From: a virus
Reading direction: 5' to 3' (one strand)
Length of the DNA stretch: 64,000 bases
IMG/VR virus record: IMGVR_UViG_3300029448_008119
Coordinates: 1,539-65,538 of that record
Shown here in pieces: positions 1,292-51,214 of this stretch. A program made the position numbers and the translations under genes. The notes beneath the pieces were generated by a model. It saw nothing but the letters and a program-made list of their open reading frames with translations. It ran no database searches and was not told the origin of the DNA. The first letter of the stretch is position 1, and the number at the start of each line of letters is the position of its first letter.

Positions 1292-1999
1292 TTAAGAACA
1301 TTCTAAGACGAAACCAGTTTCATCTTTTTTTGCAAGACCTTTTTCAACAAGTCCGACAATTATATTCTCTTCATCTAGAAAACGCAAGTCTGTTTCGTCG
1401 CCATTTATAACTTTGTATCCGTTCCAAGTCTTAGGTAATTCTTTACGGAAAACTGCTGCGACATTGCCACCTAATCGCAAAACTTTTTCTGTTTCATCAG
1501 CGTTGCTTTCCGAGCGTGAAAAGGTAAGGTGATAGTTTGACGGAAACTTTCCCGCAAGGTATTTTTCCATTCGCTTAACTGATTTAGTATAATCATAAAA
1601 TTGAACATTGGGAAAAATTTCCATTAGCTTAACGCCATTAAACTTTTGAGATTCCCAAGCCAAGTCACTTGTTAGGTTAAGACGGAAGCAAGGTGTTTGA
1701 CTCTTCTTTACTGCGAGCTTTATAGCATTGCCAATCTCTTTCACAAGTTGAAGCATAAAGTTTTCTCTGTCGTTATAGAACCACTTTGTTTTTTTGATTC
1801 GGCTTTCTTGTATTGGTGTCATGCGACCACGACCAGCAGTATTTAAGCAAGCATCGGCACAACCTTTAGAAGCCCAAGCACAAACATTAAAGCCACTTAG
1901 TTTTGCAGGTGCGAGGTGTATTCCGTAAGTCCAAAAGCCTTTCTCAGTAGACTTGTTAATTTTTGCGTTTGCTGTTGGGTTGGTTAGTATTTTTTGCAT
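1292..1999 (-). CDS. GP88-like cysteine-motif phage protein (235 aa)
   Basis: The start is taken at ATG 1999 (MQKILTNPTANAKINKS) because a strong promoter ends 6 bp upstream. A longer frame to 2086 would read through that promoter. The product has a cysteine cluster CAWASKGCADACLNTAGRG, then a segment beginning RLNLTSDLAWE, then FYDYTKS and YHLTFSRSESN. This is the pattern of the mycobacteriophage gene product 88 / DUF7227 group. Function is unknown. The spaced cysteines could bind metal or an iron-sulfur cluster; this is inference. It heads a three-gene minus-strand operon. Confidence 0.75.
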   Translation of the reverse strand: MQKILTNPTANAKINKSTEKGFWTYGIHLAPAKLSGFNVCAWASKGCADACLNTAGRGRMTPIQESRIKKTKWFYNDRENFMLQLVKEIGNAIKLAVKKSQTPCFRLNLTSDLAWESQKFNGVKLMEIFPNVQFYDYTKSVKRMEKYLAGKFPSNYHLTFSRSESNADETEKVLRLGGNVAAVFRKELPKTWNGYKVINGDETDLRFLDEENIIVGLVEKGLAKKDETGFVLECS

Positions 2000-2005
2000 A
2001 GCCGT

Positions 2006-2034
2006 ATTATGATACAGAAATTTTGGTAAGTCAA
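2006..2034 (-). promoter_or_regulatory. Leaderless-type promoter of the GP88-like operon
   Basis: On the minus strand TTGACT (2034-2029), 17 bp, CATAAT (2011-2006), then 6 bp to ATG at 1999. A T7-AAG-T7-A6 tract lies just upstream of the -35 box and could act as an UP element. Confidence 0.75.
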
Positions 2035-2101
2035 GGTATTTTTTAAAAAAACTTAAAAAAACTTTTGGCATGGATCGTGCCACCAACAGACAGCTCAGTT
2101 T

Positions 2102-2180
2102 CGTAAGTCGTTGAACATCAAGGACTTGCGCGTCGCGGGGGGTCGCGGCCCCGCAACTCGTTGAGTTGCAGGGACTTACG
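2102..2180. repeat. GC-rich dispersed repeat, copy 2 of 5
   Basis: It opens with CGTAAGTCG and closes with ACTTACG, an outer inverted repeat. The left arm is AAGTCGTTGA-ACA-TCAAGGACTT. The core is GCGGGG/CCCCGC-rich. It lies between the end of the gene at 2184 and the promoter of the GP88-like operon. Confidence 0.85.
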
Positions 2181-2183
2181 TGA

Positions 2184-2525
2184 CTATAACTCTTCCCATC
2201 CTTGTGACTTGCACATGAGCGTAGTTAGGTTTCCGTTATGATCGTGAATCTTAACAACGTCTCCAACGCTAGTCGAATGAAAAGTTTTCTTGTCTGAGCA
2301 GTTCTCCCACAAAGCCAAAAGAATTTTTTCGTGCGCTTTAGTTATAAGTTCAATCGGCGCGTTAGTTACGTGAAACAAAAGCTCTGCAAGCTTTGACGGG
2401 ATGTGCGGATAGTCGATGTGTTCTTGGTTAAGTCGAACAGAGAAAACGCATTGGCGAGCAACTTCCCATTTTTGAACAAAAGGTTCGTCTTCGCTGCGGT
2501 GTAGTGATAGTTTTATTGTTTTCAT
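2184..2525 (-). CDS. Small early protein with SVGDVV beta-barrel-like C-terminus (113 aa)
   Basis: Starts MKTIKLSLHRSEDEPF. Near the C-terminus it has HSTSVGDVVKIHDHNG followed by CKSQGWEEL. I have seen this 'S(x)SVGDVV ... GW' pattern in many small plasmid and phage proteins, where it marks a small beta-rich domain of unknown role. The gene is a single-gene unit with its own promoter ending 7 bp before the ATG and a dispersed repeat just after its stop. Confidence 0.7.
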   Translation of the reverse strand: MKTIKLSLHRSEDEPFVQKWEVARQCVFSVRLNQEHIDYPHIPSKLAELLFHVTNAPIELITKAHEKILLALWENCSDKKTFHSTSVGDVVKIHDHNGNLTTLMCKSQGWEEL

Positions 2526-2532
2526 TGTTTAC

Positions 2533-2560
2533 AGTATGGTTATTATGGTTAGATTGTCAA
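2533..2560 (-). promoter_or_regulatory. Leaderless-type promoter
   Basis: Minus strand: TTGACA (2560-2555), 16 bp, CATACT (2538-2533), 7 bp, ATG at 2525. Confidence 0.8.
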
Positions 2561-2610
2561 TAGTTTTTTTAAAAAAATTTAGGGATGATAGATTTCTTCT
2601 CACTACCTCA

Positions 2611-2719
2611 CGCAAGTCCCCGTTGCGATCCGTATTAACGCTACGGCTGCTCGTTTAGTCCCATCTCAAGGACGTCTAGAAATTTAAGCCGCCTCGCCCT
2701 AACCACAAGGCGAGACGGC
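2611..2719 (-). ncRNA. Candidate structured RNA between two small genes
   Basis: No gene fits 2561-2753. Four hairpins lie in series: an 11-bp stem (2688-2698 with 2709-2719, one mismatch or G-U); GTCC/GGAC (2658-2661, 2670-2673); CCGTA/TACGG with a 7-nt loop (2630-2634, 2642-2646); and CGCAA/TTGCG with a 7-nt loop (2611-2615, 2623-2627). The strand is uncertain. On minus it would be the 3' part of the transcript from 3364, or a separate RNA. I match it to no known class; it is not a tRNA because no T-loop is present. Confidence 0.35.
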
Positions 2720-2753
2720 ACACACGTTGATAACAACAACAACAAAAAAGTTG

Positions 2754-2996
2754 TTAGACTAGCTCTACTTTGCTAATGCGGTCTTTGTAGAAGGTGCGGA
2801 TACCACCTTGCTTTGCACTCGTCGCATACGAGTAAGTGTTGAATGACCGACCGAAGTCTTCAATGAAGTTCATGTCGATCAAGTAAGAGCCAGTTGTATT
2901 GTCGCTCTTTTTCTTATAGCGAATTGTCGCCATGTTATCTTTTGCGAAAGCCCTGCGAATTGCGAGGCGTGTTTTTTGTATTGGGTTTAGTTTCAT
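2754..2996 (-). CDS. WYL-like small protein (80 aa)
   Basis: The product is basic at the N-terminus (MKLNPIQKTRLAIRRAF). It continues with TIRYKKKSDNTTGSYLID and ends GGIRTFYKDRISKVELV. The pattern 'I-x-Y-K ... RTFYKDRI' resembles the small SH3-like WYL domain, a ligand-sensing module of transcription regulators. That assignment is tentative. A GGAGA Shine-Dalgarno lies about 10 nt before the ATG. It is 38 nt downstream of the 109-residue gene, so it is the second gene of an operon. Confidence 0.65.
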   Translation of the reverse strand: MKLNPIQKTRLAIRRAFAKDNMATIRYKKKSDNTTGSYLIDMNFIEDFGRSFNTYSYATSAKQGGIRTFYKDRISKVELV

Positions 2997-3034
2997 ATTT
3001 TCTTTTCTCCGTTTTGGATTTTCGATTGTTAAGA

Positions 3035-3364
3035 TTACATTGTGACAGAGTTTAAGGTCTCTGTCAAGTTTTTATTTGGAAGTCTAGCAATTTTTTCTAG
3101 CAAGTCGTTGCAACTATCGACATTAAGGAAACCCGCGACATCGTCTGTAATGTCTGGGTGTTGTATGATATTGCCATCTGCGTCAAGCAAAGCAAGCTCT
3201 AGACCATACGAAAATTCGTGTATGACTACAGAAGCTCCGAAGCCATTCGGAAACTCAAAAAGCTTTTGAACGCCTCCAAGCTCTGAGCGTTCGGCTAGTG
3301 TCATAGTGTGAGGCAAGGCACTTGATACCTTGAATATTTGTCGTAGTGTATCGTGTATTTTCAT
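3035..3364 (-). CDS. Conserved-type early phage protein (109 aa)
   Basis: It contains LFEFPNGFGASVVIHEFSYG, then LALLDADGNI and ITDDVAGFL. This is a pattern I know from short uncharacterised phage proteins ('FENGYGASV ... SYG ... LAVLDADG ... ITDDVIGYL'). No function is known. It heads an operon with the WYL-like gene. The start at 3364 is fixed by the promoter 7 bp upstream. Confidence 0.7.
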   Translation of the reverse strand: MKIHDTLRQIFKVSSALPHTMTLAERSELGGVQKLFEFPNGFGASVVIHEFSYGLELALLDADGNIIQHPDITDDVAGFLNVDSCNDLLEKIARLPNKNLTETLNSVTM

Positions 3365-3371
3365 AAGGCGT

Positions 3372-3399
3372 ATTATATATTACTTGTTGTTAGCGTCAA
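3372..3399 (-). promoter_or_regulatory. Leaderless-type promoter embedded in the upstream gene
   Basis: Minus strand: TTGACG (3399-3394), 16 bp, TATAAT (3377-3372), 7 bp, ATG at 3364. The -35 box also encodes Leu-Asp near the C-terminus of the 49-residue protein upstream. Confidence 0.8.
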
Positions 3400-3529
3400 G
3401 GTTTTTTTTAAAATTTCTTCTCCAATTTGCGAGACCAAGCATTCCTATGCGTTTAAAGGTTTCCCAATTTGGCTTGGGGTCTGACAGTTCTAGCCATATT
3501 TTCATTCTTCGTTTGGGATCTATGTTCAT
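3380..3529 (-). CDS. Small basic protein of unknown function (49 aa)
   Basis: The start is set at ATG 3529 (MNIDPKRRMKIWLELSDPKP) because a promoter with CATACT lies 7 bp upstream. The longer frame to 3589 would translate that promoter. The product is rich in Lys, Arg, Trp and Asn and ends RRNFKKNLDANNK. I do not recognise it. Its last codons overlap the promoter of the next gene (3364). Confidence 0.6.
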   Translation of the reverse strand: MNIDPKRRMKIWLELSDPKPNWETFKRIGMLGLANWRRNFKKNLDANNK

Positions 3530-3536
3530 GACTAAT

Positions 3537-3565
3537 AGTATGACAGAACCGAATCGGAATTGCAA
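3537..3565 (-). promoter_or_regulatory. Leaderless-type promoter, weak -35
   Basis: Minus strand: TTGCAA (3565-3560), 17 bp, CATACT (3542-3537), 7 bp, ATG at 3529. Confidence 0.6.
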
Positions 3566-3657
3566 GCAAATAAATAGCAAATCGAACACTTTTTTACGGC
3601 AAATAGTGTAAAGTATTAATAGTCAAGGACTTCGGGAACAAAAAAAACTTACAGGTT

Positions 3658-3734
3658 CGTAAGTTACTGACTATCAGACACTTGCGGGTCGGGGCGGGCC
3701 CTGGCCCCGCAAGTCGTTGACTGTCAAGGACTTA
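3658..3734. repeat. GC-rich dispersed repeat, copy 3 of 5
   Basis: CGTAAGTTACTGA opens the left arm (AAGT..TGA-CTA-TCA..ACTT). The right arm is AAGTCGTTGA-CTG-TCAAGGACTT. The core contains GGGGCGGGCCCTGGCCCC. The right end covers the last codons and stop of the gene at 3724-3930. A stray half-arm (TCAAGGACTT) occurs at about 3623-3632. Confidence 0.85.
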
Positions 3735-3930
3735 TGAGTTCCTCTTTTCTTTCTTCGCGGACTAGGTCAAAGACCTCGGCTAGGGTCTTCACCTCACCCG
3801 TCTCGCCGTTGGTGAGGGTCTCCTTGTTGCCACAAGGCTCGCAGAACTCGAGCCAGTCGCTACCGAGAACGAGGGTGTTGGTGCCACCCATAGGGCGGCG
3901 TGTGTCGCAGAAACAGCAATGATCAGCCAT
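3724..3930 (-). CDS. Small zinc-binding-type protein (68 aa)
   Basis: MADHCCFCDTRRPMGG at the N-terminus and FCEPCGN in the middle give two CxxC pairs, consistent with one zinc ribbon or knuckle. The C-terminus is acidic (VREERKEELISP). It could be a nucleic-acid or protein adaptor; there is no family evidence. It lies 20 nt downstream of the 72-residue gene without a visible Shine-Dalgarno. The final residues are encoded inside repeat copy 3. Confidence 0.65.
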   Translation of the reverse strand: MADHCCFCDTRRPMGGTNTLVLGSDWLEFCEPCGNKETLTNGETGEVKTLAEVFDLVREERKEELISP

Positions 3931-3950
3931 AATTTTTTATGTGGTTAGGG

Positions 3951-4169
3951 TTAGCGTGAAGAAGAATTGGACGCCATCTCGCGACGCATATCGTCAGCCC
4001 AAGGGTCGAACTCCTCGACCACTTCCGAGCCGCAGCGGATGACGTAAGCCGCGGCGTTGTGAGCGAAGGCATAAGCCCCGTTCAGACCCTCGCGAGTGCG
4101 TGGGAAAGTTTCAGTTTCAGTTCCCGTCTCAAAGAGACCCGACACGTGGTATGTAGTAGTGTTATCCAT
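3951..4169 (-). CDS. REGL-AY small protein A (72 aa), paralog of the gene at 5103-5330
   Basis: Contains ETFPRTREGLNGAYAFAHNA and AYVIRCGSEVVEEFDPW. The 75-residue product of 5103-5330 has the same order of motifs (ETF, REGL, AY, NA, I, G, V), so the two are diverged paralogs. I cannot name the family. Promoter geometry fixes the start. It is followed by the zinc-binding-type gene. Confidence 0.65.
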   Translation of the reverse strand: MDNTTTYHVSGLFETGTETETFPRTREGLNGAYAFAHNAAAYVIRCGSEVVEEFDPWADDMRREMASNSSSR

Positions 4170-4176
4170 AATTAAA

Positions 4177-4204
4177 ACAATAAGAAAAAAAGTTAGGTTG
4201 TCAA
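4177..4204 (-). promoter_or_regulatory. Leaderless-type promoter
   Basis: Minus strand: TTGACA (4204-4199), 16 bp, TATTGT (4182-4177), 7 bp, ATG at 4169. It overlaps no coding sequence. Confidence 0.65.
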
Positions 4205-4223
4205 GCGAATTGCGAAAAAAAGA

Positions 4224-4463
4224 TCAGAAATCTGACATTCTTTCCTCGCGTTCCATGTCCCAGAAAGCCTCGTCGTCGAGTTCCTTCTGAGTGGGAGCAG
4301 GAAGCGGAGAGACAGGATCGAGACGATCAAGGCTGACCCAATGTTCGCCACCATCGTCGTCCATGACGAGGGCTTGTCCTTGGTCAACGTCACCGACGAA
4401 GACAGGAGTGGAAAGGTCGAGAATGGCTTCTGAGCCAGATGTGATTTGTGTTTTAGTTATCAT
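4224..4463 (-). CDS. Acidic small protein with DRL motif (79 aa)
   Basis: The start is placed at ATG 4463 (MITKTQITSGSEAILDL). A perfect TATAAT ends 6 bp upstream, and the longer frame to 4511 would translate the promoter. A central segment, DDDGGEHWVSLDRLDPV, resembles DGDDAEVCVDRLTDV in the 54-residue product of 6336-6500, so both may share a small beta-barrel. The C-terminus is strongly acidic (DDEAFWDMEREERMSDF). Unknown function. Confidence 0.7.
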   Translation of the reverse strand: MITKTQITSGSEAILDLSTPVFVGDVDQGQALVMDDDGGEHWVSLDRLDPVSPLPAPTQKELDDEAFWDMEREERMSDF

Positions 4464-4469
4464 GCGAGT

Positions 4470-4498
4470 ATTATAGCATAAAAAAGAACAAAAGTCAA
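4470..4498 (-). promoter_or_regulatory. Near-consensus leaderless-type promoter
   Basis: Minus strand: TTGACT (4498-4493), 17 bp, TATAAT (4475-4470), 6 bp, ATG at 4463. Confidence 0.85.
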
Positions 4499-4512
4499 GC
4501 CCTAAACGCATC

Positions 4513-4540
4513 TTTTTTTGCTTTTTTTTAACTTTTTTTT
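4513..4540 (-). promoter_or_regulatory. Phased A-tracts upstream of promoter
   Basis: Three A-tracts on the minus strand (7, 8 and 8 A; plus-strand T at 4513-4519, 4522-4529, 4533-4540) have centres about 10-11 bp apart. This predicts intrinsic DNA bending or an UP-element effect on the promoter at 4470-4498. Confidence 0.4.
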
Positions 4541-4588
4541 CGTGCGGCAGATTGGCACGGCAATTGACACGAGCGCGGTTCGTAGTTT

Positions 4589-4665
4589 CGTAAGTCGTTG
4601 AATATCAAGCACTTGCGCGGCGGGGCGGGGCCTGGGCCCGCAAGTCGTTGACTATCAGTAACTTA
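4589..4665. repeat. GC-rich dispersed repeat, copy 4 of 5
   Basis: The clearest copy: AAGTCGTTGA-ATA-TCAAGCACTT, core GGGGCGGGGCCTGGGCCC, then AAGTCGTTGA-CTA-TCAGTAACTT. The final TTA (4663-4665) is the stop codon of the adjacent minus-strand gene. Confidence 0.88.
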
Positions 4666-4776
4666 GAACATGTAAGCTACAACCGTGCGGAAGACCTCGA
4701 ATTTATTTATAGCGATGCCAGTGATGGCGGTGATGCATAGAGCAACTACAGTGAATCTGTCAATACTTAATTTCAT
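4663..4776 (-). CDS. Tiny one-helix membrane protein (37 aa)
   Basis: MKLSIDRF is followed by a hydrophobic stretch (TVVALCITAITGIAI) and a short basic tail ending VVAYMF. This is the size of a single transmembrane peptide. It starts 17 nt inside the end of the upstream 76-residue gene in another frame. It is the last of four overlapping genes transcribed from 5365. Function unknown; membrane modulators and small lysis regulators have this shape, but that is only inference. Confidence 0.55.
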   Translation of the reverse strand: MKLSIDRFTVVALCITAITGIAINKFEVFRTVVAYMF

Positions 4777-4990
4777 TTTTTATAGCCTCAATTTTTTTGT
4801 TTTGTTCTATTACTTTTCCGATTGGATAGCCTTGGTCTTTCCAAGATTGGGTTTGAGTTTCGATGCGGTGAGCTTCTCTCTTTTCAGCGAGTGAAAGAAA
4901 CCAAGCAAAGAAAAAGAAAAGGAAGATAGTAAAGCAAACTATCGCAGGGCGAGACCATTCGCTTTCGATGAAGTTGATTATTTTATTCAT
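4760..4990 (-). CDS. Single-TM protein with charged tail (76 aa)
   Basis: The N-terminal helix segment MNKIINFIESEWSRP is followed by a hydrophobic segment of about 20 residues (AIVCFTIFLFFFFAWFLSL). A long charged cytoplasmic-type tail (EKREAHRIE ... QNKKIEAIKNEIKY) could be coiled coil. The start overlaps the stop of the 39-residue gene by ATGA. Unknown function. Confidence 0.6.
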   Translation of the reverse strand: MNKIINFIESEWSRPAIVCFTIFLFFFFAWFLSLAEKREAHRIETQTQSWKDQGYPIGKVIEQNKKIEAIKNEIKY

Positions 4991-5106
4991 GAGTGTTCGA
5001 TTAAGAGAAGGATTGTGGCTATGAAGATCATAAGATTTATTACGGAAAAAGCAAAGTAAAATTCGTTTGTCCAGATTGTGTGTATTGTTTTTAGTATTGT
5101 TTTCAT
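4987..5106 (-). CDS. Tiny membrane protein (39 aa)
   Basis: MKTILKTIHTIWTNEF followed by a hydrophobic stretch (AFSVINLMIFIATILLL) and IEHS. The start at 5106 is chosen because ATG overlaps the TGA of the preceding gene (ATGA). A longer frame to 5199 reads inside that gene. It also ends in an ATGA overlap with the next gene, so translation is probably coupled. Confidence 0.6.
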   Translation of the reverse strand: MKTILKTIHTIWTNEFYFAFSVINLMIFIATILLLIEHS

Positions 5107-5330
5107 TGTGCTGATTGTGCGGATAAAGAGAGAGAATGCAAGTCTAAAAGTGATGGAATTTTTGCATCGACTGAAACTCCTTGGTAAGTGATGCGCCAAG
5201 CACAGGCGTTTGAACTGTAGCTATAAGCCGCCTCTAGACCTTCACGGCATTTGCCGAAGTGAAAGGTTTCAACTTTGCCAGAGTATGTTGGTAGCATCTC
5301 GAGTTTGTAGGTTGGGTTTGGTGTTGTCAT
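5103..5330 (-). CDS. REGL-AY small protein B (75 aa), paralog of the gene at 3951-4169
   Basis: Contains VETFHFGKCREGLEAAYSYS and ACAWRITYQGVSV, matching the motif order of the 72-residue product of 3951-4169. Identity is modest, so the duplication is old or the copies evolve fast. First gene of a four-gene operon of overlapping genes that continues with three small membrane proteins. Confidence 0.65.
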   Translation of the reverse strand: MTTPNPTYKLEMLPTYSGKVETFHFGKCREGLEAAYSYSSNACAWRITYQGVSVDAKIPSLLDLHSLSLSAQSAQ

Positions 5331-5337
5331 GGTTAGT

Positions 5338-5365
5338 AGTATGATTATTTTTGTGTGGTTGTCAA
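5338..5365 (-). promoter_or_regulatory. Leaderless-type promoter
   Basis: Minus strand: TTGACA (5365-5360), 16 bp, CATACT (5343-5338), 7 bp, ATG at 5330. The -35 box starts 5 bp after the stop of the upstream gene. Confidence 0.82.
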
Positions 5366-5369
5366 GGGT

Positions 5370-5633
5370 TTATTTATCCATGCTTTGCATGAAAGTTGCC
5401 ATAGCCGAGGCACTCTTTTTAAGAGCGTCGAGGATGTCTTGAGGGTTTACATCTTCGGCAACCTTAAGGTTGTTGAGAATCTTTGAGTCGCTAGCACGAC
5501 GACCAAGAGTCCGACCGAAGCCGTAGCGACCATCTGTAAAACTGTAACGACCATAAGTGATGTCTTTTAAGACCATAGGCTTGTCATCCACGATGTAAGC
5601 CTGTCCGATTTGTAGTGTGTTATTTGTTATCAT
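5370..5633 (-). CDS. Small protein of unknown function (87 aa)
   Basis: MITNNTLQIGQAYIVDDKPM followed by KDITYGRYSFTDGRYGFGRT, a glycine/tyrosine-rich beta segment, then a helical tail (DILDALKKSASAMATFMQSM). It could be a small beta-barrel with a helix. Unknown family. The first codons ATGATAACAAAT are shared with two other cassette genes (5821, 6694). Confidence 0.65.
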   Translation of the reverse strand: MITNNTLQIGQAYIVDDKPMVLKDITYGRYSFTDGRYGFGRTLGRRASDSKILNNLKVAEDVNPQDILDALKKSASAMATFMQSMDK

Positions 5634-5640
5634 AGTAAAC

Positions 5641-5668
5641 AGTATGGTTATTTTTGTGTGATTGTCAA
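5641..5668 (-). promoter_or_regulatory. Leaderless-type promoter inside the 3' end of the upstream gene
   Basis: Minus strand: TTGACA (5668-5663), 16 bp, CATACT (5646-5641), 7 bp, ATG at 5633. TTGACA encodes the Leu-Thr near the C-terminus of the upstream 57-residue protein, and that gene's stop lies in the spacer. Confidence 0.82.
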
Positions 5669-5821
5669 GCGTTTTTGGAAGTTTTTTTCCATAAGAGCAA
5701 CTTCTTTTTTGCTGAAGATTAGAGCGAGCCTTTCGGGTGTCTCACCGAGGTGGCGGTTAGCATTGTAGCTAGCTTGGGTTAGGTGGTCGATTACCTTTTC
5801 AATTTCCTTATTTGTTATCAT
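5648..5821 (-). CDS. MITNKEI paralog A (57 aa)
   Basis: MITNKEIEKVIDHLTQASYN at the N-terminus is nearly the same as the 59-residue product of 6515-6694 (MITNKEIDSVIDHLTQSSYN). Both end LT-x2-QK and both C-termini run into the next gene's promoter. Predicted mostly helical. Function unknown. Promoter spacing (7 bp) fixes the start. Confidence 0.7.
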   Translation of the reverse strand: MITNKEIEKVIDHLTQASYNANRHLGETPERLALIFSKKEVALMEKNFQKRLTITQK

Positions 5822-5828
5822 ACGATAC

Positions 5829-5856
5829 AGTATGACAGGAAAAACGCAAAAGTCAA
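5829..5856 (-). promoter_or_regulatory. Leaderless-type promoter
   Basis: Minus strand: TTGACT (5856-5851), 16 bp, CATACT (5834-5829), 7 bp, ATG at 5821. A T7-AAG-T7-A6 tract precedes the -35 box, as at the GP88-like operon. Confidence 0.82.
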
Positions 5857-5892
5857 GGCTTTTTTAAAAAAACTTAAAAAAACTTTCAGTTA

Positions 5893-5971
5893 CGTAAGTG
5901 GTTCACCATCAAGCACTTGCGCCTCGGCGCCCCGCCCCGCCCCGCAAGTCGTTGACTTGCAGGGACTTACG
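5893..5971. repeat. GC-rich dispersed repeat, copy 5 of 5
   Basis: Opens CGTAAGTGGTTCA and closes AGGGACTTACG. The core is CGGCGCCCCGCCCCGCCCCGC. It sits 12 bp beyond the stop of the minus-strand gene at 5983. Confidence 0.85.
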
Positions 5972-5982
5972 GATGATAACAA

Positions 5983-6318
5983 TTAGTTGGGAATTATTTC
6001 ACGAATTCCCTTGACAAGTGCCTTGACCTCGTCACGGCTGAGGCTGACATCCTTATCGCCACCGCATCCGTCGTCACCCAAGATTAGAATCTTTCCAGCC
6101 AAGGGCGAAGGGTAGACGCTCTCGACGAACTCGACGGCACGAGACGTGCCGTTGATCAGTCCCTCGTCGTCGCAGTAGATGACGTTGTCCTTAAGGGCTT
6201 CACCTCGGACGCAAGTGAAACAGTCGCAACCGATATGCTTCTGTATGTCTTCGAAGCCATCGACAGAGACCTCTTTGATGCTTACATCGAATGGATTTAT
6301 AAGTAGTGCTTTGTTCAT
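5983..6318 (-). CDS. DUF3846-like protein (111 aa)
   Basis: MNKALLINPFDVSIKEVSV, then IQKHIGCDCFTCV, then NVIYCDDEGLINGTSRAV, then GKILILGDDGCGGDKDVSLS. This order (N-terminal strand, 'LQ..IGG', 'DEEGL.. N..A', 'G..ilvG.D..G') matches DUF3846, a small domain common in phages, plasmids and mobile elements. It has no assigned activity. It lies 17 nt after the 54-residue gene and shares its promoter. Confidence 0.7.
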   Translation of the reverse strand: MNKALLINPFDVSIKEVSVDGFEDIQKHIGCDCFTCVRGEALKDNVIYCDDEGLINGTSRAVEFVESVYPSPLAGKILILGDDGCGGDKDVSLSRDEVKALVKGIREIIPN

Positions 6319-6335
6319 GGTAGTAGTAGTGTGGG

Positions 6336-6500
6336 TTAAAATTCTAGCGGTGTGAGGTCAAGCTCTTGGTGCTCGACATCAGTGAGGCGATCGACGCAAA
6401 CCTCTGCGTCGTCTCCATCGTTAGTGAGGATTATTGCGTTAGCTCCGTCGATGCCTACGACCTCGACGCGTGTCTTGTTATCTAGTGTAGCGGTTATCAT
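6336..6500 (-). CDS. Acidic small protein with DRL motif (54 aa)
   Basis: Clean ATG-to-TAA frame: MITATLDNKTRVEVVGIDG, then AEVCVDRLTDV, ending LTPLEF. The DRL segment resembles that of the 79-residue product of 4224-4463. The start is supported by a promoter ending 7 bp upstream. It heads a two-gene operon with the DUF3846-like gene. Confidence 0.65.
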   Translation of the reverse strand: MITATLDNKTRVEVVGIDGANAIILTNDGDDAEVCVDRLTDVEHQELDLTPLEF

Positions 6501-6507
6501 GTCTTAC

Positions 6508-6535
6508 AGTATGGTTATTTCTGTGCGGTTGTCAA
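6508..6535 (-). promoter_or_regulatory. Leaderless-type promoter inside the 3' end of the upstream gene
   Basis: Minus strand: TTGACA (6535-6530), 16 bp, CATACT (6513-6508), 7 bp, ATG at 6500. TTGACA encodes Leu-Thr of the upstream 59-residue protein, whose TAA lies in the spacer. Confidence 0.82.
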
Positions 6536-6694
6536 GGCTTTGTTGTAATTAGTTTCTAGCTGAACCTGCTCGGTGCGTCCGTAGATCGCGCCCCAGTTCT
6601 TAGCAGGGATCGCAGGGTATAGCTGACGCTGTGTGTTGTAACTAGACTGAGTGAGGTGGTCGATGACCGAATCTATTTCTTTATTTGTTATCAT
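6515..6694 (-). CDS. MITNKEI paralog B (59 aa)
   Basis: MITNKEIDSVIDHLTQSSYN matches paralog A (5648-5821) at the N-terminus. The middle differs (YPAIPAKNWGAIYGRTEQ). The last residues TTAQK resemble TITQK in the paralog. Unknown function. Its terminal codons overlap the promoter at 6508-6535, exactly as in paralog A. Confidence 0.7.
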   Translation of the reverse strand: MITNKEIDSVIDHLTQSSYNTQRQLYPAIPAKNWGAIYGRTEQVQLETNYNKALTTAQK

Positions 6695-6701
6695 GCCTTA
6701 C

Positions 6702-6729
6702 AGTATAGGGAAGAATCGTGTGGCGTCAA
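6702..6729 (-). promoter_or_regulatory. Leaderless-type promoter
   Basis: Minus strand: TTGACG (6729-6724), 16 bp, TATACT (6707-6702), 7 bp, ATG at 6694. The 197 bp to its right (6730-6926) hold no convincing gene, only C/G runs such as CCCCACCCC and a run of seven G. Confidence 0.8.
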
Positions 6730-6926
6730 GCCCTAATAGCAGAAAAATTAAAGTTTTTTCTACAAACACCCCACCCCATTGTCAAAACTTCTGGGCGCAG
6801 ATATAACAAAACAAGCGGGGGGGAGGGTTTTATCAATCTCCCAAGGCAAAATCACAATTGGAAATTACTTAAGTCGAAAAAAAATCCGAGCCTTATTTCT
6901 ATAGGGGTAAATGTTTATTTTTGGGG

Positions 6927-7172
6927 CTAGTATATTAGTTGACTGATAAAAAGACCAGTCGCTGTTCCACAACAAGCACCTAGCGAATAGGTTATTTTTT
7001 CGCTTAATTTAGAGAAGGCAATACCTTGTATGTTAAAACACCAAACAAAAGATATAAGAAATCCAACAAAGATAGCACCTATAATTTTACCGTTAGCTAT
7101 TTGCCAAGTATTAAGGCACACAAGTGAAACTTGCATCCAAGCGTATATGAATCTTTTTATATTTTTATTCAT
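6927..7172 (-). CDS. Small multi-helix membrane protein (81 aa)
   Basis: The start at ATG 7172 (MNKNIKRFIYAWMQVSLV) is chosen because the longer frame to 7226 runs through the tRNA gene. Three hydrophobic segments are visible: FIYAWMQVSLVCLNTW, IIGAIFVGFLISFVWCF and YSLGACCGTATGLFISQLIY. The tail pattern 'N-I-x-x-I-A-F ... Y-x-x-G-A-x-x-G-x-x-x-G' recalls a family of short phage membrane proteins of unknown function. A holin-like role is possible but unsupported. Confidence 0.6.
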   Translation of the reverse strand: MNKNIKRFIYAWMQVSLVCLNTWQIANGKIIGAIFVGFLISFVWCFNIQGIAFSKLSEKITYSLGACCGTATGLFISQLIY

Positions 7173-7181
7173 TTTAAAGTC

Positions 7182-7253
7182 TAGCTCCACCAGGAATCGA
7201 ACCTGGAACGCAAGATTAGAAATCATGTGTTATATCCGTTTAACTATAGAGCC
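7182..7253 (-). tRNA. tRNA-Arg (anticodon UCU)
   Basis: On the minus strand: acceptor GGCTCTA pairing with TGGAGCT (including G-U pairs), D-arm GTTA/TAAC, anticodon arm CATGA-TTTCTAA-TCTTG with anticodon TCT, and T-arm CCAGG-TTCGATT-CCTGG. The discriminator base is A and CCA is not encoded. One U-U mismatch occurs in the anticodon stem. It would read AGA/AGG, frequent in this AT-rich phage. The 5' end overlaps the stop codon of the HNH gene. Confidence 0.88.
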
Positions 7254-7831
7254 AAATTGCCATTTACTAGCTTAATAAAGTTAACAAATTCTTCGTGGGT
7301 CATATCTCCTTTTGCTTGATTAGCTTCTTTGGAAATAATTTGTAAATTTTCTAAAGTATTTTCTCCTCCCCTAGAGCGTGGAGTGATGTGATCATATTGA
7401 TATTCCTCTGGGCGAGTCCAGCATAAAGTCTTTCCAGTATATCTGCAAGTAAAAATGGTATTAGATTCTTTTATACCGTATTTTGCTTTAACATACTTTA
7501 TTTTAGTCTTTTGTTCCATTGTATCAGATTTGTGGTGTTTCGAGAAATTTTTTAATCTATTCCTATTAGTGGCATGAGCTTCCTTAAAAGTCAAGTCTTT
7601 TATTTTAACTTTTTGTTTGTTTTCTGTTTTGGAGCAAAAAAATCGAGATATGTTCCTGCAGTTCTTTACTTCATAGTTTGGAATCTTTTTTTTCCTTTCT
7701 TGAGCTTTCTTCAGTTGCTTGTCTGGATCTAAATGCCAGCATACGGTAGATCTAGCGCAACCTATTTCTCTAGATATCTCACCTTGATTTAAACCTTTGG
7801 AACTTAGTTCTAATATTTTTTCCTTAAGCAT
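7244..7831 (-). CDS. HNH endonuclease with N-terminal helix-turn-helix (195 aa)
   Basis: The start at ATG 7831 (MLKEKILELSSKGLNQGEIS) is set by a promoter 7 bp upstream. Residues 1-30 read as a helix-turn-helix (QGEISREIGCARSTVCWHL). The C-terminal nuclease part has CRYTGKTLCW, then YDHITPRSRGG, then ENLQIISKEANQAKGD, the HNH pattern with D-H, N and a second catalytic-type region. This is the layout of free-standing homing-type HNH enzymes. Its stop codon TAG lies in the acceptor stem of the downstream tRNA-Arg. Confidence 0.85.
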   Translation of the reverse strand: MLKEKILELSSKGLNQGEISREIGCARSTVCWHLDPDKQLKKAQERKKKIPNYEVKNCRNISRFFCSKTENKQKVKIKDLTFKEAHATNRNRLKNFSKHHKSDTMEQKTKIKYVKAKYGIKESNTIFTCRYTGKTLCWTRPEEYQYDHITPRSRGGENTLENLQIISKEANQAKGDMTHEEFVNFIKLVNGNLAL

Positions 7832-7838
7832 TAAACAA

Positions 7839-7866
7839 ATAATGCATAAAACCCCAAACATGTCAA
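7839..7866 (-). promoter_or_regulatory. Leaderless-type promoter of the HNH gene
   Basis: Minus strand: TTGACA (7866-7861), 16 bp, CATTAT (7844-7839), 7 bp, ATG at 7831. It follows directly on a terminator. Confidence 0.75.
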
Positions 7867-8344: not shown

Positions 8345-8400
8345 TACTAGTGTTACACAAGAATTTTAAAAAAAAGAAAAAAAATTTTTAAAAGGAAAAA

Positions 8401-8414
8401 GTGTAAAATACTTT
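8401..8414 (+). promoter_or_regulatory. Late-type motif GTGTAA-8-ATG
   Basis: GTGTAAAATA at 8401-8410 sits 8 bp before ATG 8415. A long A/T tract precedes it. There is no Shine-Dalgarno between the motif and the ATG. Confidence 0.6.
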
Positions 8415-10884: not shown

Positions 10885-10898
10885 GTGTAATAAGATAT
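10885..10898 (+). promoter_or_regulatory. Late-type motif GTGTAA-8-ATG
   Basis: GTGTAATAAG (10885-10894) ends 4 bp before ATG 10899, with 8 bp between GTGTAA and the ATG. It follows directly after the upstream stop. Confidence 0.6.
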
Positions 10899-17337: not shown

Positions 17338-17361
17338 GTGTAATTAACTTTATAATAAGTT
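17338..17361 (+). promoter_or_regulatory. Late-type motif before the portal gene, longer spacing
   Basis: GTGTAATTAA (17338-17347) overlaps a perfect palindrome CACTTTTAAAAGTG. The distance from GTGTAA to ATG is 18 bp rather than 8 and includes TATAAT. Whether this or TATAAT drives the portal gene is unclear. Confidence 0.45.
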
Positions 17362-23734: not shown

Positions 23735-23748
23735 GTGTAATATACTTC
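23735..23748 (+). promoter_or_regulatory. Late-type motif GTGTAA-8-ATG
   Basis: GTGTAATATA (23735-23744), 8 bp between GTGTAA and ATG 23749. Confidence 0.6.
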
Positions 23749-24651: not shown

Positions 24652-24757
24652 TGTTAGCCTTTCTATTTACGTGTTTATTAATCACGCGTTCCTTGGGGAG
24701 CACTATGCACCTTACTTCCGTCTCTTTCGAGATGAACGGCTATATAATATATTACAC
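24652..24757 (-). promoter_or_regulatory. Late-type motif and structured 5' leader
   Basis: GTGTAATATA (minus, 24757-24748) is followed by about 95 nt before the ATG. That stretch can form TCTC-GAAA-GAGA, GCA-TAG-TGC and CGTG/CACG hairpins. A plus-strand open frame here (24621-24809) has no support. Confidence 0.45.
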
Positions 24758-27211: not shown

Positions 27212-27221
27212 TTATTATTAA

Positions 27222-27227
27222 TTACAC
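27222..27227 (-). promoter_or_regulatory. Late-type motif GTGTAA-10-ATG
   Basis: GTGTAATTAA on minus, 10 bp before ATG at 27211. It lies within the 3' intergenic end of the upstream gene. Confidence 0.55.
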
Positions 27228-28272: not shown

Positions 28273-28280
28273 GTCTATAT

Positions 28281-28298
28281 TTACACTTTTTTGTGTAA
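28281..28298. promoter_or_regulatory. Back-to-back divergent late motifs
   Basis: TTACAC-TTTTTT-GTGTAA: a minus motif 8 bp from ATG 28272 and a plus motif 23 bp from ATG 28322. The plus gene also has an AAGGA Shine-Dalgarno. Confidence 0.65.
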
Positions 28299-30337: not shown

Positions 30338-30352
30338 GTGTAATATCATTAT
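30338..30352 (+). promoter_or_regulatory. Late-type motif GTGTAA-9-ATG
   Basis: GTGTAATATC (30338-30347) before the tape measure ATG 30353. Confidence 0.6.
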
Positions 30353-39762: not shown

Positions 39763-39776
39763 GTGTAATTATAGAT
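39763..39776 (+). promoter_or_regulatory. Late-type motif GTGTAA-8-ATG
   Basis: GTGTAATTAT (39763-39772), 8 bp between GTGTAA and ATG 39777. Confidence 0.6.
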
Positions 39777-42700
39777 ATGGCAAACCTTGAAGGAAAAAGA
39801 ATAGATTCAACATATGTTTATGTGTTGAATTCAGATCCAAATACGGCTATAGTAACAAATGGTGACGGAAGTGCTGTGAATTGGCACAAAAATTTAATAG
39901 TGTTACAAACTGGAAATCAAACCATTTCTGGTGTCAAAAACTTTGAATCTATACCTAAATATCAAGGATTAGATATTGTATATAAAAATAATCCACTTTC
40001 TGGACTTGGCGAGGGCGTTTTGCACCAGGCTCAAAATTCTAACGGGTCTATTATATTAGCTGGTAATATTAATAATCTAAGTGGAAACTATTCTGTAATT
40101 TTAGCAGGAGAAGGACACGGATTGACTGGGGACAGGTCTGCGATTTTAGTTGGAGTAAATAACTTATTGACGGGAGATAGGTCTTTAATTGGAGCTGGAT
40201 CTGGCAATTATGTAAGTGGAGATAATTCATCAATAGCAGGTGGAAAAGAAAACTCCGTGCAAGGCTCTGATTCTTTTATAGCTGCTGGATTTGATAATAA
40301 AATATTTTCTAATAAATCTATAATTGGGGCTGGAGATGAAAACAGGTGTCATTCTTTGGCAGGAGGAATTTTAGCAGGTCTAAATAATACAGTTAGTGGA
40401 CAGAGGTCCGTCATAGGTGGTGGGTTTCAAAATGAAGCCGTGGGAGACATTTCTGCTATATTAGGAGGAAGAGATAATCAAGTTCAAGAACACACTTATT
40501 CTAGTAACGTATTGGGTGGCAGATCAAATAAGGTAACTTCTGGAGACTATTCTTCTATAGCGGGTGGTCATCAAAATATTGTAAGTGGGTCTTTTTCTGC
40601 TATAGTTGGTGGAATCTTAAACAGTGTTGAAAATTCAGACAATTCTATAATTGGTGTAGGTACTGGCAATCTAATAAAAGACTCAACTGGTGCAGCTTTA
40701 TTTGGGGGTAACTCAAATATGGTTAGCGGCAATAGAAGTGTCCTTATTGGCGGCGGTGGAAATAAAGTTTTTGGGGACGAAATAGTCCTAATGGGTGGCA
40801 AAACAAATACTGCAAGCGGCGAATTTGCAACGCTTTTTGCTGGTGAAAATAACAATGTAACAGGTATAGCATCAACAATCGTAGCTGGTAGAGAAAATAA
40901 TATTCAAAACTCTAACGATAGTTCAATCATTGCTGGAAGTGGCCAGTTGATTGCTGGCGCTTTAAGATCTTCAATTCATGGGGGGAGGGATAATACAAAT
41001 ACAAATTCTCATGATTCTTCTATAACTGCAGGAACTGGCAATACTTTAACAAGCAATACAAATTCGTTAATTGGCGCTGGAAGATCTAATACATTACAAA
41101 GCTCTCATGATTCAACCATTAACGCTGGAACTGGAAATACTATAGCATCATCTCAAAAATCTTTTATTGCAGCTGGACATACCAACGATATATTAAACTC
41201 TCTTCATTCTTCAATTAATGCTGGACATACAAATAAAATTACAGGATCTAATTACTCTTTTGTTTCAGCTGCAATTTCAGGTCAAATTTTACAATCAACT
41301 GGCTCTGCAATTATTGCTGGGCTAGATAATAAAATTACAGGATCTATAGATTCTTTTATTGGAGGAGGAAATAGAAATTTAATAAGTAAGTCAGATAACT
41401 CTCTAGTTGGAACATCAGACGATTCTGTGATAGATATAAATACAGATGTAATTTTTACTTTTACTGGTTTTTCTAACGAAACCCTTGGGCACAAAAAAAT
41501 AGTAGAACGAGGATTTGCATCAGACTTTACCAAATTTCCGTTTGCAGATATTAGTTCAGCTTCGTCGTTTTCGAACTTTTCTGACGATGATTATACTTAT
41601 TCTGATCAAGCTGGTTTTGAAAGAGTTTCGGGTTTGTGGCTTCAGGAAAAACGTTTTGACGAACCTGTATACGCGTCTATTTTAAATGGAAAAGAAAATA
41701 AAATCGAATCTGATTTTTCTACTATTTTAAATGGCTCTGGAAATGAATTGGCTGGAGCAAACTCAGTAATATTTGGCATAAACAATAAAGCTTCTGGTCA
41801 TAATTCATACATTCTTGGAGGGACTGGTAATAAAATCAATTTAGGGTTTTTGCCAACTGGTTTAGTAGAAAATTTTAGTTTTGGGTTTGGTTTAACAAGA
41901 AATTATGAAAATTACAATACAATAATTGCTGGAGAAAATAATGAAATAGGCGCCAATGAGATTGGAGAAGTATTTGCAACTTTTGCTGGGGGATTTTTTG
42001 AGGGTGTACAAAATAGACATGTTCATATATTCGGAGGAGAGAAAAACTCTGCAAACGGAATAAGTAATTTTATATTAAACGGCAAAAGAAACACTATACA
42101 TGCAACGACTTTTTCTCCGCGTGCAGAATTTAACATTTCAGAATTTACAGCAGGTGACCAAGAGATTACTCAGTTTCATATACCAGAGCTAAGCGGGGTA
42201 TTTGCAACTGATTTTATCCGCCATCAAAGTACGAAGAGACAAACCTACGAGGGTCACTCTTTTATTTCTTCTTCGGTTGGATGTACTACGCACGGAACAT
42301 TTTTGTCAATAAATAATTCTATAAATTCAGATATAGAAAGTGGGCAAAAATTTAATAATAATTCAGTTTCTTCTACTCAGGATGCTTATCCATTCTTTTG
42401 TAATGTGAACGGTAGTCTTGGCTCTTTAATTAAAGGGTCTCATTATGCTTCAATCTTTAATGGTATCGGAAATGAAATTTTGGAGGCTGATAATAGCTTT
42501 AGAATCAGTAATATCAACTCAACCATTTTAAATGGAAACAGAAATAAGATTGTTGGCAATGGCCCAGAGTTTGACGCGGTAGACTCGACGATTAATAATA
42601 CATACTGTACGATTTTAAATGGGCTGAGAAACGAACTTTATAACAAAAAATCTACAATTATAAATGGCTTAGATAACATATCGTCTGGTAGGTCAACTTT

Positions 42701-43916
42701 AATTTTTGGTGACGACAATATTATTTCCGCTAGTGAGTTTGTTGATTCTCCAGCTGTGTCTTTTATATTTGGAAAAGCAAATACTATGAGTGGGGCAGCA
42801 TTCACTACACAGCAGACAAGGCAAGACGGTAATTATATATTTGGAAGAAAGAATGAACTTAAAAACTGCTCTAGTGTGTTTGCTATTGGTGGTCATAAAT
42901 TTACTGATGCTGGAAATACAATTTTGGTTGACAATAAGTTTATTCTGTGTCGTGATGTTTTTTCTTTTAATAACGAGGTATCTGAAATTGCTGATTGCAA
43001 TGACTCAAATATGGGTAATATAGTGTCTTCATATATAAGTGGAGTGTCTAATTCGTCACTGCAAAATATACGCAATGTTACCACCTCACAGATTTTCGAT
43101 GGACGATTAAATGTTGTAGATAGATCCACTATCCAAGCAAATATTTGTGATTTCTGTAACGTTTCTGATACAACTATATCTGGAGTTAACACGTCTGCTC
43201 TTTTTAATGTTACTCACAGTGATATAACTGGCATGTCACATTCGCGTGTTCAAGGTTCCTATAATAAAATAGGCAACCTAAGCAATAATAACTGCGTCGA
43301 CGATACGCAGATATTTGGAAATCATATTAATATAACTGGAAGAGTAGGTCTTGACGGGTCAAACATACATGGCGACAATATTGATTTTAAAGTTAAGAAT
43401 GAAGGAAATTTCTGCGACTATTCAAATATCGACATTCTTGGTAGCAACCACTCAATGTTTGGAAATCAAGGTGATATGTTTCAAATAACGATTAGGGGAG
43501 GCAGTAATAATATTACAACATCAAGTCGTCTTTTTCTGCACGGTTCACAAATTGATGTAGAAGACTCGAATGACTCTTTTTTCTTTGGAAAAAATATAGA
43601 CTCAACTGGGGATAGTACTTTTATTTTCGGCGAAAAGATAAAATCTGAATTTAAGGGAGGATCTGTAATAAGAGACAGTAATCCAGAAGGCTCATTCCTT
43701 GAATCTAAGGGGCAAGATACTCTTTTACTTAGCTTTGCAAAAGGAACTTATTTAAATATGCCATCGGGCAATTCAAGCAATACCACCCCAAATGATGGAG
43801 TCCCAGGATCTCTCTTGTATAGTGGAGAGTTTTTACTGGTAAAAACTGGACTTGGCTCAGCGACTAATAGTAATCCGCATGGATGGGGCAAAATACAAAT
43901 ATCGTCCCTGGATTAA
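39777..43916 (+). CDS. Giant tail adhesin with YadA-like head repeats (1379 aa)
   Basis: Residues about 90-560 consist of some 25-30 repeats of 15-18 residues with the consensus S-x-I-x-x-G-x-x-N-x-V-x-G, such as SVILAGEGHGLTGDRSAIL and NTVSGQRSVIGGGFQNEAVG. This matches the head repeats of trimeric autotransporter adhesins (YadA/Hia), which form a left-handed beta-roll. Degenerate repeats (SxILNGxxN) recur later. The N-terminal about 75 residues probably attach it to the tail. Likely receptor-binding side or tip fibre. The end overlaps a convergent gene by 4 bp. Confidence 0.75.
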   Translation: MANLEGKRIDSTYVYVLNSDPNTAIVTNGDGSAVNWHKNLIVLQTGNQTISGVKNFESIPKYQGLDIVYKNNPLSGLGEGVLHQAQNSNGSIILAGNINNLSGNYSVILAGEGHGLTGDRSAILVGVNNLLTGDRSLIGAGSGNYVSGDNSSIAGGKENSVQGSDSFIAAGFDNKIFSNKSIIGAGDENRCHSLAGGILAGLNNTVSGQRSVIGGGFQNEAVGDISAILGGRDNQVQEHTYSSNVLGGRSNKVTSGDYSSIAGGHQNIVSGSFSAIVGGILNSVENSDNSIIGVGTGNLIKDSTGAALFGGNSNMVSGNRSVLIGGGGNKVFGDEIVLMGGKTNTASGEFATLFAGENNNVTGIASTIVAGRENNIQNSNDSSIIAGSGQLIAGALRSSIHGGRDNTNTNSHDSSITAGTGNTLTSNTNSLIGAGRSNTLQSSHDSTINAGTGNTIASSQKSFIAAGHTNDILNSLHSSINAGHTNKITGSNYSFVSAAISGQILQSTGSAIIAGLDNKITGSIDSFIGGGNRNLISKSDNSLVGTSDDSVIDINTDVIFTFTGFSNETLGHKKIVERGFASDFTKFPFADISSASSFSNFSDDDYTYSDQAGFERVSGLWLQEKRFDEPVYASILNGKENKIESDFSTILNGSGNELAGANSVIFGINNKASGHNSYILGGTGNKINLGFLPTGLVENFSFGFGLTRNYENYNTIIAGENNEIGANEIGEVFATFAGGFFEGVQNRHVHIFGGEKNSANGISNFILNGKRNTIHATTFSPRAEFNISEFTAGDQEITQFHIPELSGVFATDFIRHQSTKRQTYEGHSFISSSVGCTTHGTFLSINNSINSDIESGQKFNNNSVSSTQDAYPFFCNVNGSLGSLIKGSHYASIFNGIGNEILEADNSFRISNINSTILNGNRNKIVGNGPEFDAVDSTINNTYCTILNGLRNELYNKKSTIINGLDNISSGRSTLIFGDDNIISASEFVDSPAVSFIFGKANTMSGAAFTTQQTRQDGNYIFGRKNELKNCSSVFAIGGHKFTDAGNTILVDNKFILCRDVFSFNNEVSEIADCNDSNMGNIVSSYISGVSNSSLQNIRNVTTSQIFDGRLNVVDRSTIQANICDFCNVSDTTISGVNTSALFNVTHSDITGMSHSRVQGSYNKIGNLSNNNCVDDTQIFGNHINITGRVGLDGSNIHGDNIDFKVKNEGNFCDYSNIDILGSNHSMFGNQGDMFQITIRGGSNNITTSSRLFLHGSQIDVEDSNDSFFFGKNIDSTGDSTFIFGEKIKSEFKGGSVIRDSNPEGSFLESKGQDTLLLSFAKGTYLNMPSGNSSNTTPNDGVPGSLLYSGEFLLVKTGLGSATNSNPHGWGKIQISSLD

Positions 43917-46042: not shown

Positions 46043-46401
46043 TAGAATGGAATTTCTTCGTCAGTTCCAGCGCTTGAAGTTTTAGCTTCTGCTTTGTCGT
46101 TCTTACCGCCCATAAATTGGACGTTATCAGCCTTGACATAAAGCTTGGACTGCTTCTTTCCATCTTTTTCCCAAGTGTCTTGGACTAACCGACCTTCAGC
46201 CAATACTTGACGACCCTTAGTAAGATACTGTTGACAAATGTCACCAAGCTTACTCCAAGCGTCTACGTCAATATAGGAAACCTTATCCTTTTGACGAGCG
46301 TCATTTACTGCTACCACAAGACGAGTTACATTTGTTTCGCCAGCCTTGCGCGATTCTGGATCTCTTGCGAGATTTCCTACTATTACTGTTTTACTATACA
46401 T
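46042..46401 (-). CDS. ssb: Single-stranded DNA-binding protein
   Basis: 119 residues with an OB-fold: SKTVIVGNLARDPESR, then YIDVDAWSKLGDICQQYLTKG and RQVLAEGRLVQDTW. The acidic tip TDEEIPF matches the bacterial SSB C-terminal peptide that recruits partners. It starts within the end of the sigma-like gene. Confidence 0.95.
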   Translation of the reverse strand: MYSKTVIVGNLARDPESRKAGETNVTRLVVAVNDARQKDKVSYIDVDAWSKLGDICQQYLTKGRQVLAEGRLVQDTWEKDGKKQSKLYVKADNVQFMGGKNDKAEAKTSSAGTDEEIPF

Positions 46402-46951
46402 ATTTTTTTATCTCTGTTAAATGTTTGTTGTGAATATTTATACATCCTTGAATTGATAAGTCAAGCTTTTTCGCAATTTTTTTCCAAGGAGTGAGTTTTC
46501 TCCCATCCTGATATCTCATTCTAAATATTTTTTTAACCCTATCATCTTTCATGGAATCTATCCTATTAAATATTTTTTTTATTAACTCTTCTTTTTCCAT
46601 TGTCTTCAACTCGGAATCGCAACTAACAGTATCGTCAAAAATTTCAGAAATACAAGATTGGGGAAATTTAATATTTTTATTATAAATATTCAAACACTTC
46701 CATCTTGCTAAATTACCTATATATGTGCTGAATTTTGCGTTTTTGGTATCATCAAACTTTATAGCTGCGTCATATATACAAAAATCTTTGTCTTGTAGAA
46801 CGTCTTCTTTATTGAGGCCCTCGCTAGATTCTGGAAGATATTTATTAACCATATCCACATAAATACCAGAGTGTCTATCAATAAGCTCTCTCATTGATTC
46901 TTGGTCTGCATATTTTTTAACCTTATCTATTAAGTATATATCGTTTTCCAT
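46394..46951 (-). CDS. Sigma-70-like factor B (185 aa)
   Basis: Region 2: EDVLQDKDFCIYDAAIKFDD then KFSTYIGNLARWKCLNIY. Region 4: DDRVKKIFRMRYQDGRKLT, PWKKIAKKLDLSIQGCINIH. A compact two-domain sigma factor without regions 1 and 3. Located in the nucleotide/replication operon and so probably made earlier than sigma A (12885). It overlaps both neighbours. Which promoters it reads is unknown. Confidence 0.78.
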   Translation of the reverse strand: MENDIYLIDKVKKYADQESMRELIDRHSGIYVDMVNKYLPESSEGLNKEDVLQDKDFCIYDAAIKFDDTKNAKFSTYIGNLARWKCLNIYNKNIKFPQSCISEIFDDTVSCDSELKTMEKEELIKKIFNRIDSMKDDRVKKIFRMRYQDGRKLTPWKKIAKKLDLSIQGCINIHNKHLTEIKKYV

Positions 46952-47792: not shown

Positions 47793-48047
47793 TAAACATT
47801 TAATAAATACATCAAAACAAATAAGTCAAGACAATTTTGTCTTATTATAATATATTTTTATAAATACTTATAAAATACTTAAATATTTAATATATATATA
47901 TTAATTACTCGTCAGCTCACTGCGTTCGCTAACTCGTAATAAACTCTATTTTAACACGAATACACGAAAAGTCAAGTGGTAAAAAATATTTTTATGAATT
48001 TAAAGAAAATAGTTGACTTTTAAATATGACGGTGTAAATTTAGGCGT
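47793..48047. promoter_or_regulatory. AT-rich divergent intergenic region
   Basis: 255 bp without a gene between two operons. It contains long A/T stretches, an ATATATATAT run near 47890 and one GC island (47905-47938). On minus the island reads GC-GA-AC-GCA-GT-GA-GC, a hairpin with tandem sheared G-A pairs. It could hold an origin or a promoter switch. Confidence 0.4.
48013..48040 (+). promoter_or_regulatory. Leaderless-type promoter of nrdB
   Basis: TTGACT (48013-48018), 16 bp, TAAATT (48035-48040), 7 bp, ATG 48048. This is the same geometry as the minus-strand cassettes, and it also contains GTGTAA (48032-48037). Confidence 0.7.
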
Positions 48048-50879: not shown

Positions 50880-50894
50880 GTGTAAATATCTCAT
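50880..50894 (+). promoter_or_regulatory. Late-type motif GTGTAA-9-ATG
   Basis: GTGTAAATAT begins one base after the nrdA stop and precedes ATG 50895 by 9 bp. Confidence 0.6.
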
Positions 50895-51206: not shown

Positions 51207-51214
51207 ATCACTTT
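51201..51214 (+). promoter_or_regulatory. Late-type motif GTGTAA-8-ATG
   Basis: GTGTAAATCA (51201-51210) overlaps the upstream stop codon; ATG 51215. Confidence 0.6.

Follow-up and report, generated by a model that had tools for sequence, protein, structure and literature searches.

Two promoter classes with a fixed spacing to the start codon and predicted leaderless mRNAs in an uncultured marine phage lineage

Background

In mycobacteria, many mRNAs are leaderless (PMC4633059), and a GeneMarkS-2 survey, as quoted in PMC9581028, predicts leaderless transcription in about 21.6% of bacterial species. Among phages, single leaderless genes are cited for lambda and P2 (in PMC4633059), and three leaderless SigA-like promoters, in which +1 coincides with the first nucleotide of the start codon, have been predicted in the Cluster O mycobacteriophages, the Corndog group (PMC4351075). 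In a limited search of the open-access literature, no phage lineage was seen described that has a leaderless layout together with its own late promoter class. The phage considered here is represented by IMG/VR record IMGVR_UViG_3300029448_008119, which is 92,312 bases long; the window, i.e. the whole stretch of 64,000 nucleotides that was analysed, comprises positions 1539–65538 of that record. Many transcription units of this phage are likely made as leaderless mRNAs, to judge from the positions of two promoter classes that appear to be locked onto AUG.

In the proposed mechanism, class E promoters consist of TTGAC, 16–17 bp, a YATAMT-like box, 6–7 bp and ATG; they lie mostly in an arm of small genes and would presumably be read by the host sigma70 holoenzyme early in infection. 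Class L promoters have a −10-only box, GTGTAAWA, followed by about 6 nt and ATG; they belong to structural, packaging and replication genes, and would presumably be read by host RNA polymerase with a phage sigma-like protein, in the manner of T4 late transcription. We infer the early and late timing from gene content. Ribosomes would then start on the 5′-terminal AUG. Genes within a unit that have no promoter mostly overlap or directly abut the preceding gene, and therefore probably depend on coupling.

Sigma70-type promoters whose predicted +1 is the first nucleotide of the start codon are common to this phage and to Cluster O. Cluster O has three such promoters and uses host SigA only, whereas the phage studied here has about 15 starts in each of classes E and L, along with a putative phage sigma and conservation across the lineage. 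Bacterial leaderless genes likewise have a −10 box directly before ATG, no Shine-Dalgarno (SD) sequence and a 5′ AUG, but they are part of a cellular mix of leadered and leaderless genes, whereas the phage appears to have a dedicated second promoter class. The lambda and P2 genes also give leaderless phage mRNAs, yet these are isolated cases and not a genome layout.

In T4 late transcription, which depends on gp55, gp33 and gp45, roughly one helical turn separates the −10 box from the start downstream of it (PMC2988020). T4 and this phage share a small phage sigma-like protein with domain 2 and a −10-only box that is AT-rich downstream and has no −35 element. The T4 box is TATAAATA, in place of which GTGTAAWA is found here. 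In T4, TATAAATA was mostly 22–36 nt before the start codon, and the SD test that was applied to the phage gave 79% vs 3.5%. T4 genes have an SD and distant boxes, whereas class L genes show no SD enrichment and have boxes at 14–16 nt.

Promoters of the small-gene arm

A sequence-only reading of the window had proposed that 13 units share one geometry, with a (T/C)ATA(A/C)T-like −10 box 6–7 bp from ATG. Box positions were measured in all 13. In 12 of them TTGAC starts exactly 35 nt 5′ of the A of ATG, and a spacer of 16 or 17 bp is correspondingly followed by a 7- or 6-bp gap between the −10-like box and ATG. The exception is unit 3529, a 49-aa open reading frame (ORF) for which no homologue was found; it has TTGCAA at 36 nt. 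The −10 boxes at 4169 (TATTGT), 7831 (CATTAT) and 48048 (TAAATT) are weak.

Four minus-strand units have the layout TTGACA-16-CATACT-7-ATG: 2525 (promoter at 2526–2560), 5330 (5331–5365), 5633 (5634–5668) and 6500 (6501–6535). The other promoters on this strand are those of a GP88-family gene with ATG at 1999 (2000–2034; TTGACT-17-CATAAT-6-ATG), 3364 (3365–3399; TTGACG-16-TATAAT-7-ATG), 4169 (4170–4204; TTGACA-16-TATTGT-7-ATG), 4463 (4464–4498; TTGACT-17-TATAAT-6-ATG), 5821 (5822–5856; TTGACT-16-CATACT-7-ATG), 6694 (6695–6729; TTGACG-16-TATACT-7-ATG) and the HNH gene at 7831 (7832–7866; TTGACA-16-CATTAT-7-ATG). The plus-strand gene nrdB, with ATG at 48048, is preceded by a hybrid promoter (48013–48047) that has TTGAC plus the second motif, GTGTAAATT, so that a sigma70 −35 is combined with the late −10 box of the phage. 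The hybrid is present in several relatives, whose NrdB proteins (63–96% identity) align from residue 1, and it is possibly read by both holoenzymes.

The cassettes had been described as near-identical, which is correct only for 2525, 5330, 5633 and 6500 (72–75% over 64 nt to a reference copy); the remainder have geometry in common but not sequence. This bears on the proposal that the pattern is an artefact of an AT-rich genome, or a single promoter block copied around the arm. Because of the four similar cassettes, the class E units cannot all be counted as independent. However, the others agree in position but differ in sequence, which speaks against mere copying, and the distance statistics and the relatives described below also oppose this explanation, which is largely refuted and retains hardly any probability. 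The whole record has 212 copies of TTGAC, and 16 of them are followed by an ATG at exactly +35, where the base per distance is 2.9 (p ~ 5e-8); 13 of these 16 ATGs are called gene starts. Beyond the window there is a similar unit with ATG at 35 nt (L004), and distances of 37 are found at 61942 and at L005:4702. When every hexamer upstream of the called genes was scanned from −8 to −54 without a preset motif, CTTGAC at −36 ranked first in this genome and GTGTAA at −14 second.

Eighty relatives were retrieved via the portal-like protein, and stretches of larger records were also read. Both box types recur in relatives at the same spacing to ATG. TTGAC-N30-ATG is found 15 times in relative G001 vs once for a reversed-pattern control, and nine times vs once in G006. 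Spacing histograms were made from de-duplicated gene starts of many records, with genes called without use of the motifs. They place TTGAC at 34, 35, 36 and 37 nt in 6, 26, 11 and 9 cases, and GTGTAA at 14, 15 and 16 nt in 50, 20 and 12 cases; all other distances have 0–4, and no more than 3 in the case of TTGAC. The fixed-distance search that the earlier reading had suggested thus finds TTGAC enriched 35 nt from ATG both in this genome and in its relatives.

The window's proteins and their homologues can be aligned from their first residues onwards, and each homologue has its own diverged cassette at the same distance. The homologues are 61–64% identical for the GP88-family protein, 86–92% for 2525, 71% for 4463, 71% for 5633 and 58–64% for the HNH protein. 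The layout of the promoter at 4169 is also found ahead of an ATG in G006 (TTGACAACCTCACC..TATTGTTTTAATTATG). Since homologues align from residue 1 and have equally placed cassettes, the question of later in-frame starts is answered for most units; 3529, 5330 and 6500 are without such support. The first codons ATGATAAC(A/C/T) are indeed common to 4463, 5633, 5821, 6500 and 6694, as had been noticed; the proteins of 5821 and 6694 are paralogues (49%).

The late box

The small-gene arm proved too narrow a scope, as a second class stands before structural and replication genes. GTGTAA(A/T)A is found 14–16 nt 5′ of ATG at 16 sites on both strands, before tail, structural, packaging and replication genes. 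Sixteen of the 38 GTGTAA copies have this spacing, vs 0.74 per distance (p ~ 9e-10). The consensus from 83 de-duplicated genes is an A-rich stretch, GTGTAAWA, about six A/T-rich bases and ATG. Positions −34 to −20 show no conservation, so there is no −35 element, with the nrdB hybrid as the exception.

On the plus strand, late boxes precede the ATGs at 8415 (GTGTAAAATACTTT, 8401–8414), 10899 (10885–10898), 23749 (23735–23748), 30353 of a tail gene (30338–30352), 39777 (39763–39776), 50895 (50880–50894), 51215 (51201–51214), 54427 (54410–54426) and 61653 (61637–61652). On the minus strand they precede those at 27211 (27212–27227) and 28272 (28273–28286), and a further box (24744–24757) lies between a terminator hairpin and a glutamine riboswitch.

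As GTGTAAWA is close to ATG, on the coding strand and in both orientations, it could be thought of as a translation-initiation or mRNA-processing signal and not a promoter. This is a very improbable explanation. The minus-strand copy at 24744–24757 follows a terminator and precedes a riboswitch rather than an ATG, and two late boxes start directly 3′ of a terminator T-run. Late boxes occur in 1 of 150 cases where the upstream gene overlaps, abuts or is less than 10 nt away, and in 22 of 54 gaps of 10–29 nt. In addition, nrdB joins GTGTAAWA to a −35 TTGAC in several phages, and the box recurs with a sigma gene in distant phages. A role for GTGTAA as a processing signal was rejected on the grounds of the T-runs, the gap distribution and the riboswitch-adjacent copy.

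A phage sigma-like protein

A phage sigma-like protein of 185 aa, encoded at 46394–46951 on the minus strand, is the proposed reader of the late box. It matches Pfam Sigma70_r2 at 5e-4, below the curated cut-off, and SigA entries in the PDB at 1e-3; sequence and fold searches list cellular sigma factors. In the structure model (mean pLDDT 76.7) the top fold matches are to sigma factors only, and an N-terminal part of ~95 residues superposes on sigmaE region 2 in complex with its −10 strand (Z 10.5; rmsd 2.6 for 91 residues). The predicted protein has a conserved C-terminal helical part in addition to domain 2, whereas gp55 resembles sigma70 in domain 2 only.

Homologues are present in 41 loci. 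In the 26 loci that have a copy 37–47% identical, GTGTAA at −15 is the most position-enriched hexamer of all. This co-occurrence links the sigma gene to the box, although it does not by itself prove binding. GTGTAAWA is probably served by the phage-encoded sigma factor.

Position of the transcript start

If T4-like −10 placement, about one helical turn upstream, is applied to class L, the expected start is the A of ATG; the class E boxes place the expected start there as well. Transcription initiators usually have a pyrimidine at −1 and a purine at +1. A pyrimidine is found at −1 in 81% of class E (p = 0.004) and 84% of class L genes (p = 2e-8), vs 51% of other genes; in the 83 de-duplicated class L genes T is at −1 in 72%. 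It should be pointed out also that gaps of 10–29 nt, where late boxes are frequent, are too short for a promoter plus a leader.

The glutamine riboswitch (RF01739; 24683–24740, minus strand; 42.3 bits, gathering 35) provides an independent check of the register of the late box, without reference to any ATG. The riboswitch begins 17 nt 3′ of the G of GTGTAA in the box that directly follows the terminator. A start 14 nt after that G, predicted at ~24743, falls three bases before the riboswitch. The riboswitch precedes a 48-aa ORF (24651–24505, minus strand).

SD sequences in −16 to −4 are present in 2% of class E, 8% of class L and 13% of other genes, with 6–18% in controls; none of the start classes of the phage shows SD enrichment. 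Taken together, the fixed promoter–ATG geometry, the conserved N-termini, the lack of SD and the pyrimidine before the A support the leaderless interpretation that had been put forward, and a start at or within 1–3 nt of AUG would be the best reading for both classes.

Several observations weigh against this. Most genes that have no promoter lack an SD as well, so that on its own this lack characterizes the phage or its host rather than leaderless genes. Twenty-two of the 38 GTGTAA copies have no ATG at 14–16 nt. The portal-like gene (ATG 17362, plus strand) has its box 24 nt upstream (17338–17361), with an 18-nt gap at 60 places in relatives; it is an exception, for which a leader of about 10 nt is predicted. 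The 48-aa ORF that follows the riboswitch has a leader, and leaders of 1–3 nt are possible elsewhere. As to the sigma-like protein, its sequence scores are marginal, and the case is carried by the modelled fold. Relative G001 has late boxes, yet the sigma gene was searched for and not detected there. The nrdB gene, which is near the sigma gene in the window's phage, was also not found in G001, and the G001 record may simply be without the nrdB/sigma region.

Some of these points would fit real promoters whose starts lie slightly upstream or downstream, which would give leaders of 2–10 nt or starts within the codon, with an A-rich, SD-free leader being translated. The box distance does vary by 1–3 nt, the box of the portal-like gene is at −24, and starts in this phage generally have no SD. 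However, the mode falls on one base in both classes, and the pyrimidine at −1 and the riboswitch register also oppose such leaders, which makes this alternative unlikely, though it deserves more weight than those discussed above. Starts at the AUG itself, or next to it, are preferred.

Other sequence features

A GTGTAA at 8358 heads an apparent non-coding RNA of ~90 nt (~8345–8255, minus strand) with a GCCCCAT..ATGGGGC-T7 terminator at its end. It matched none of the Rfam families above threshold, and no annotated relative was found. The ORF behind the late box at 39763–39776 encodes a 1379-aa protein (39777–43916, plus strand) whose repeats match the grass antifreeze beta-roll family LbR_Ice_bind (2.4e-8); it is probably a beta-roll tail fibre.

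Five copies of a GC-rich element of ~94 nt are found between arm genes (693–786, 2085–2178, 3641–3734, 4572–4665 and 5876–5969). The element has internal inverted repeats (AAGTCGTTGACT..TCAAG..ACTTGCG) and a GC content far above that of its surroundings, and is possibly a terminator or a mobile repeat. The window's phage has a single tRNA gene, tRNA-Arg (7181–7254), and G001 has a cluster of about nine (L098, 2416–4327).

Phage lineage and host

The phage lineage is widespread, uncultured, marine and diverse. Among 50,697 isolated phage records there is no near DNA relative of the record and no match to the portal-like protein; TerL matches isolated phages only distantly. psbA is absent from the 19 records checked.

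A Patescibacteria host was considered but not assigned: the one species-genome match of the portal-like protein is a 6.2-kb contig of a metagenome-assembled genome (MAG), and the protein is present in 1 of 379 genomes of the phylum, which is weak evidence. In that MAG (G013, L116–L133, contig 1), hexamers resembling a −10 box are most frequent at −12 from ATG (17 of 310 starts vs 0–6 elsewhere), which suggests leaderless promoters in the genome. Pattern counts for Patescibacteria were disregarded, because the list behind them is biased towards short gaps. The glutamine riboswitch does not point to one particular host, given that an OM43 methylophage has it too (PMC9004378).

Implications

Leaderless mRNAs were known from many bacteria and from single phage genes; what would be new, as far as the open-access papers searched show, is a phage lineage built on them, with its own late promoter class. 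It is reasonably likely, if less so than leaderless synthesis of many units in itself, that this marine lineage runs both its early and late programmes mainly from 5′-AUG leaderless mRNAs, with the box of a phage sigma factor locked to the start codon, and that the heads of units bypass SD recognition altogether. In uncultured phages the boxes are a clear sequence marker of transcription and gene starts, and they provide dozens of genes as a natural set for testing leaderless initiation. A small sigma factor whose box is strictly spaced from AUG could also be reconstituted in vitro.

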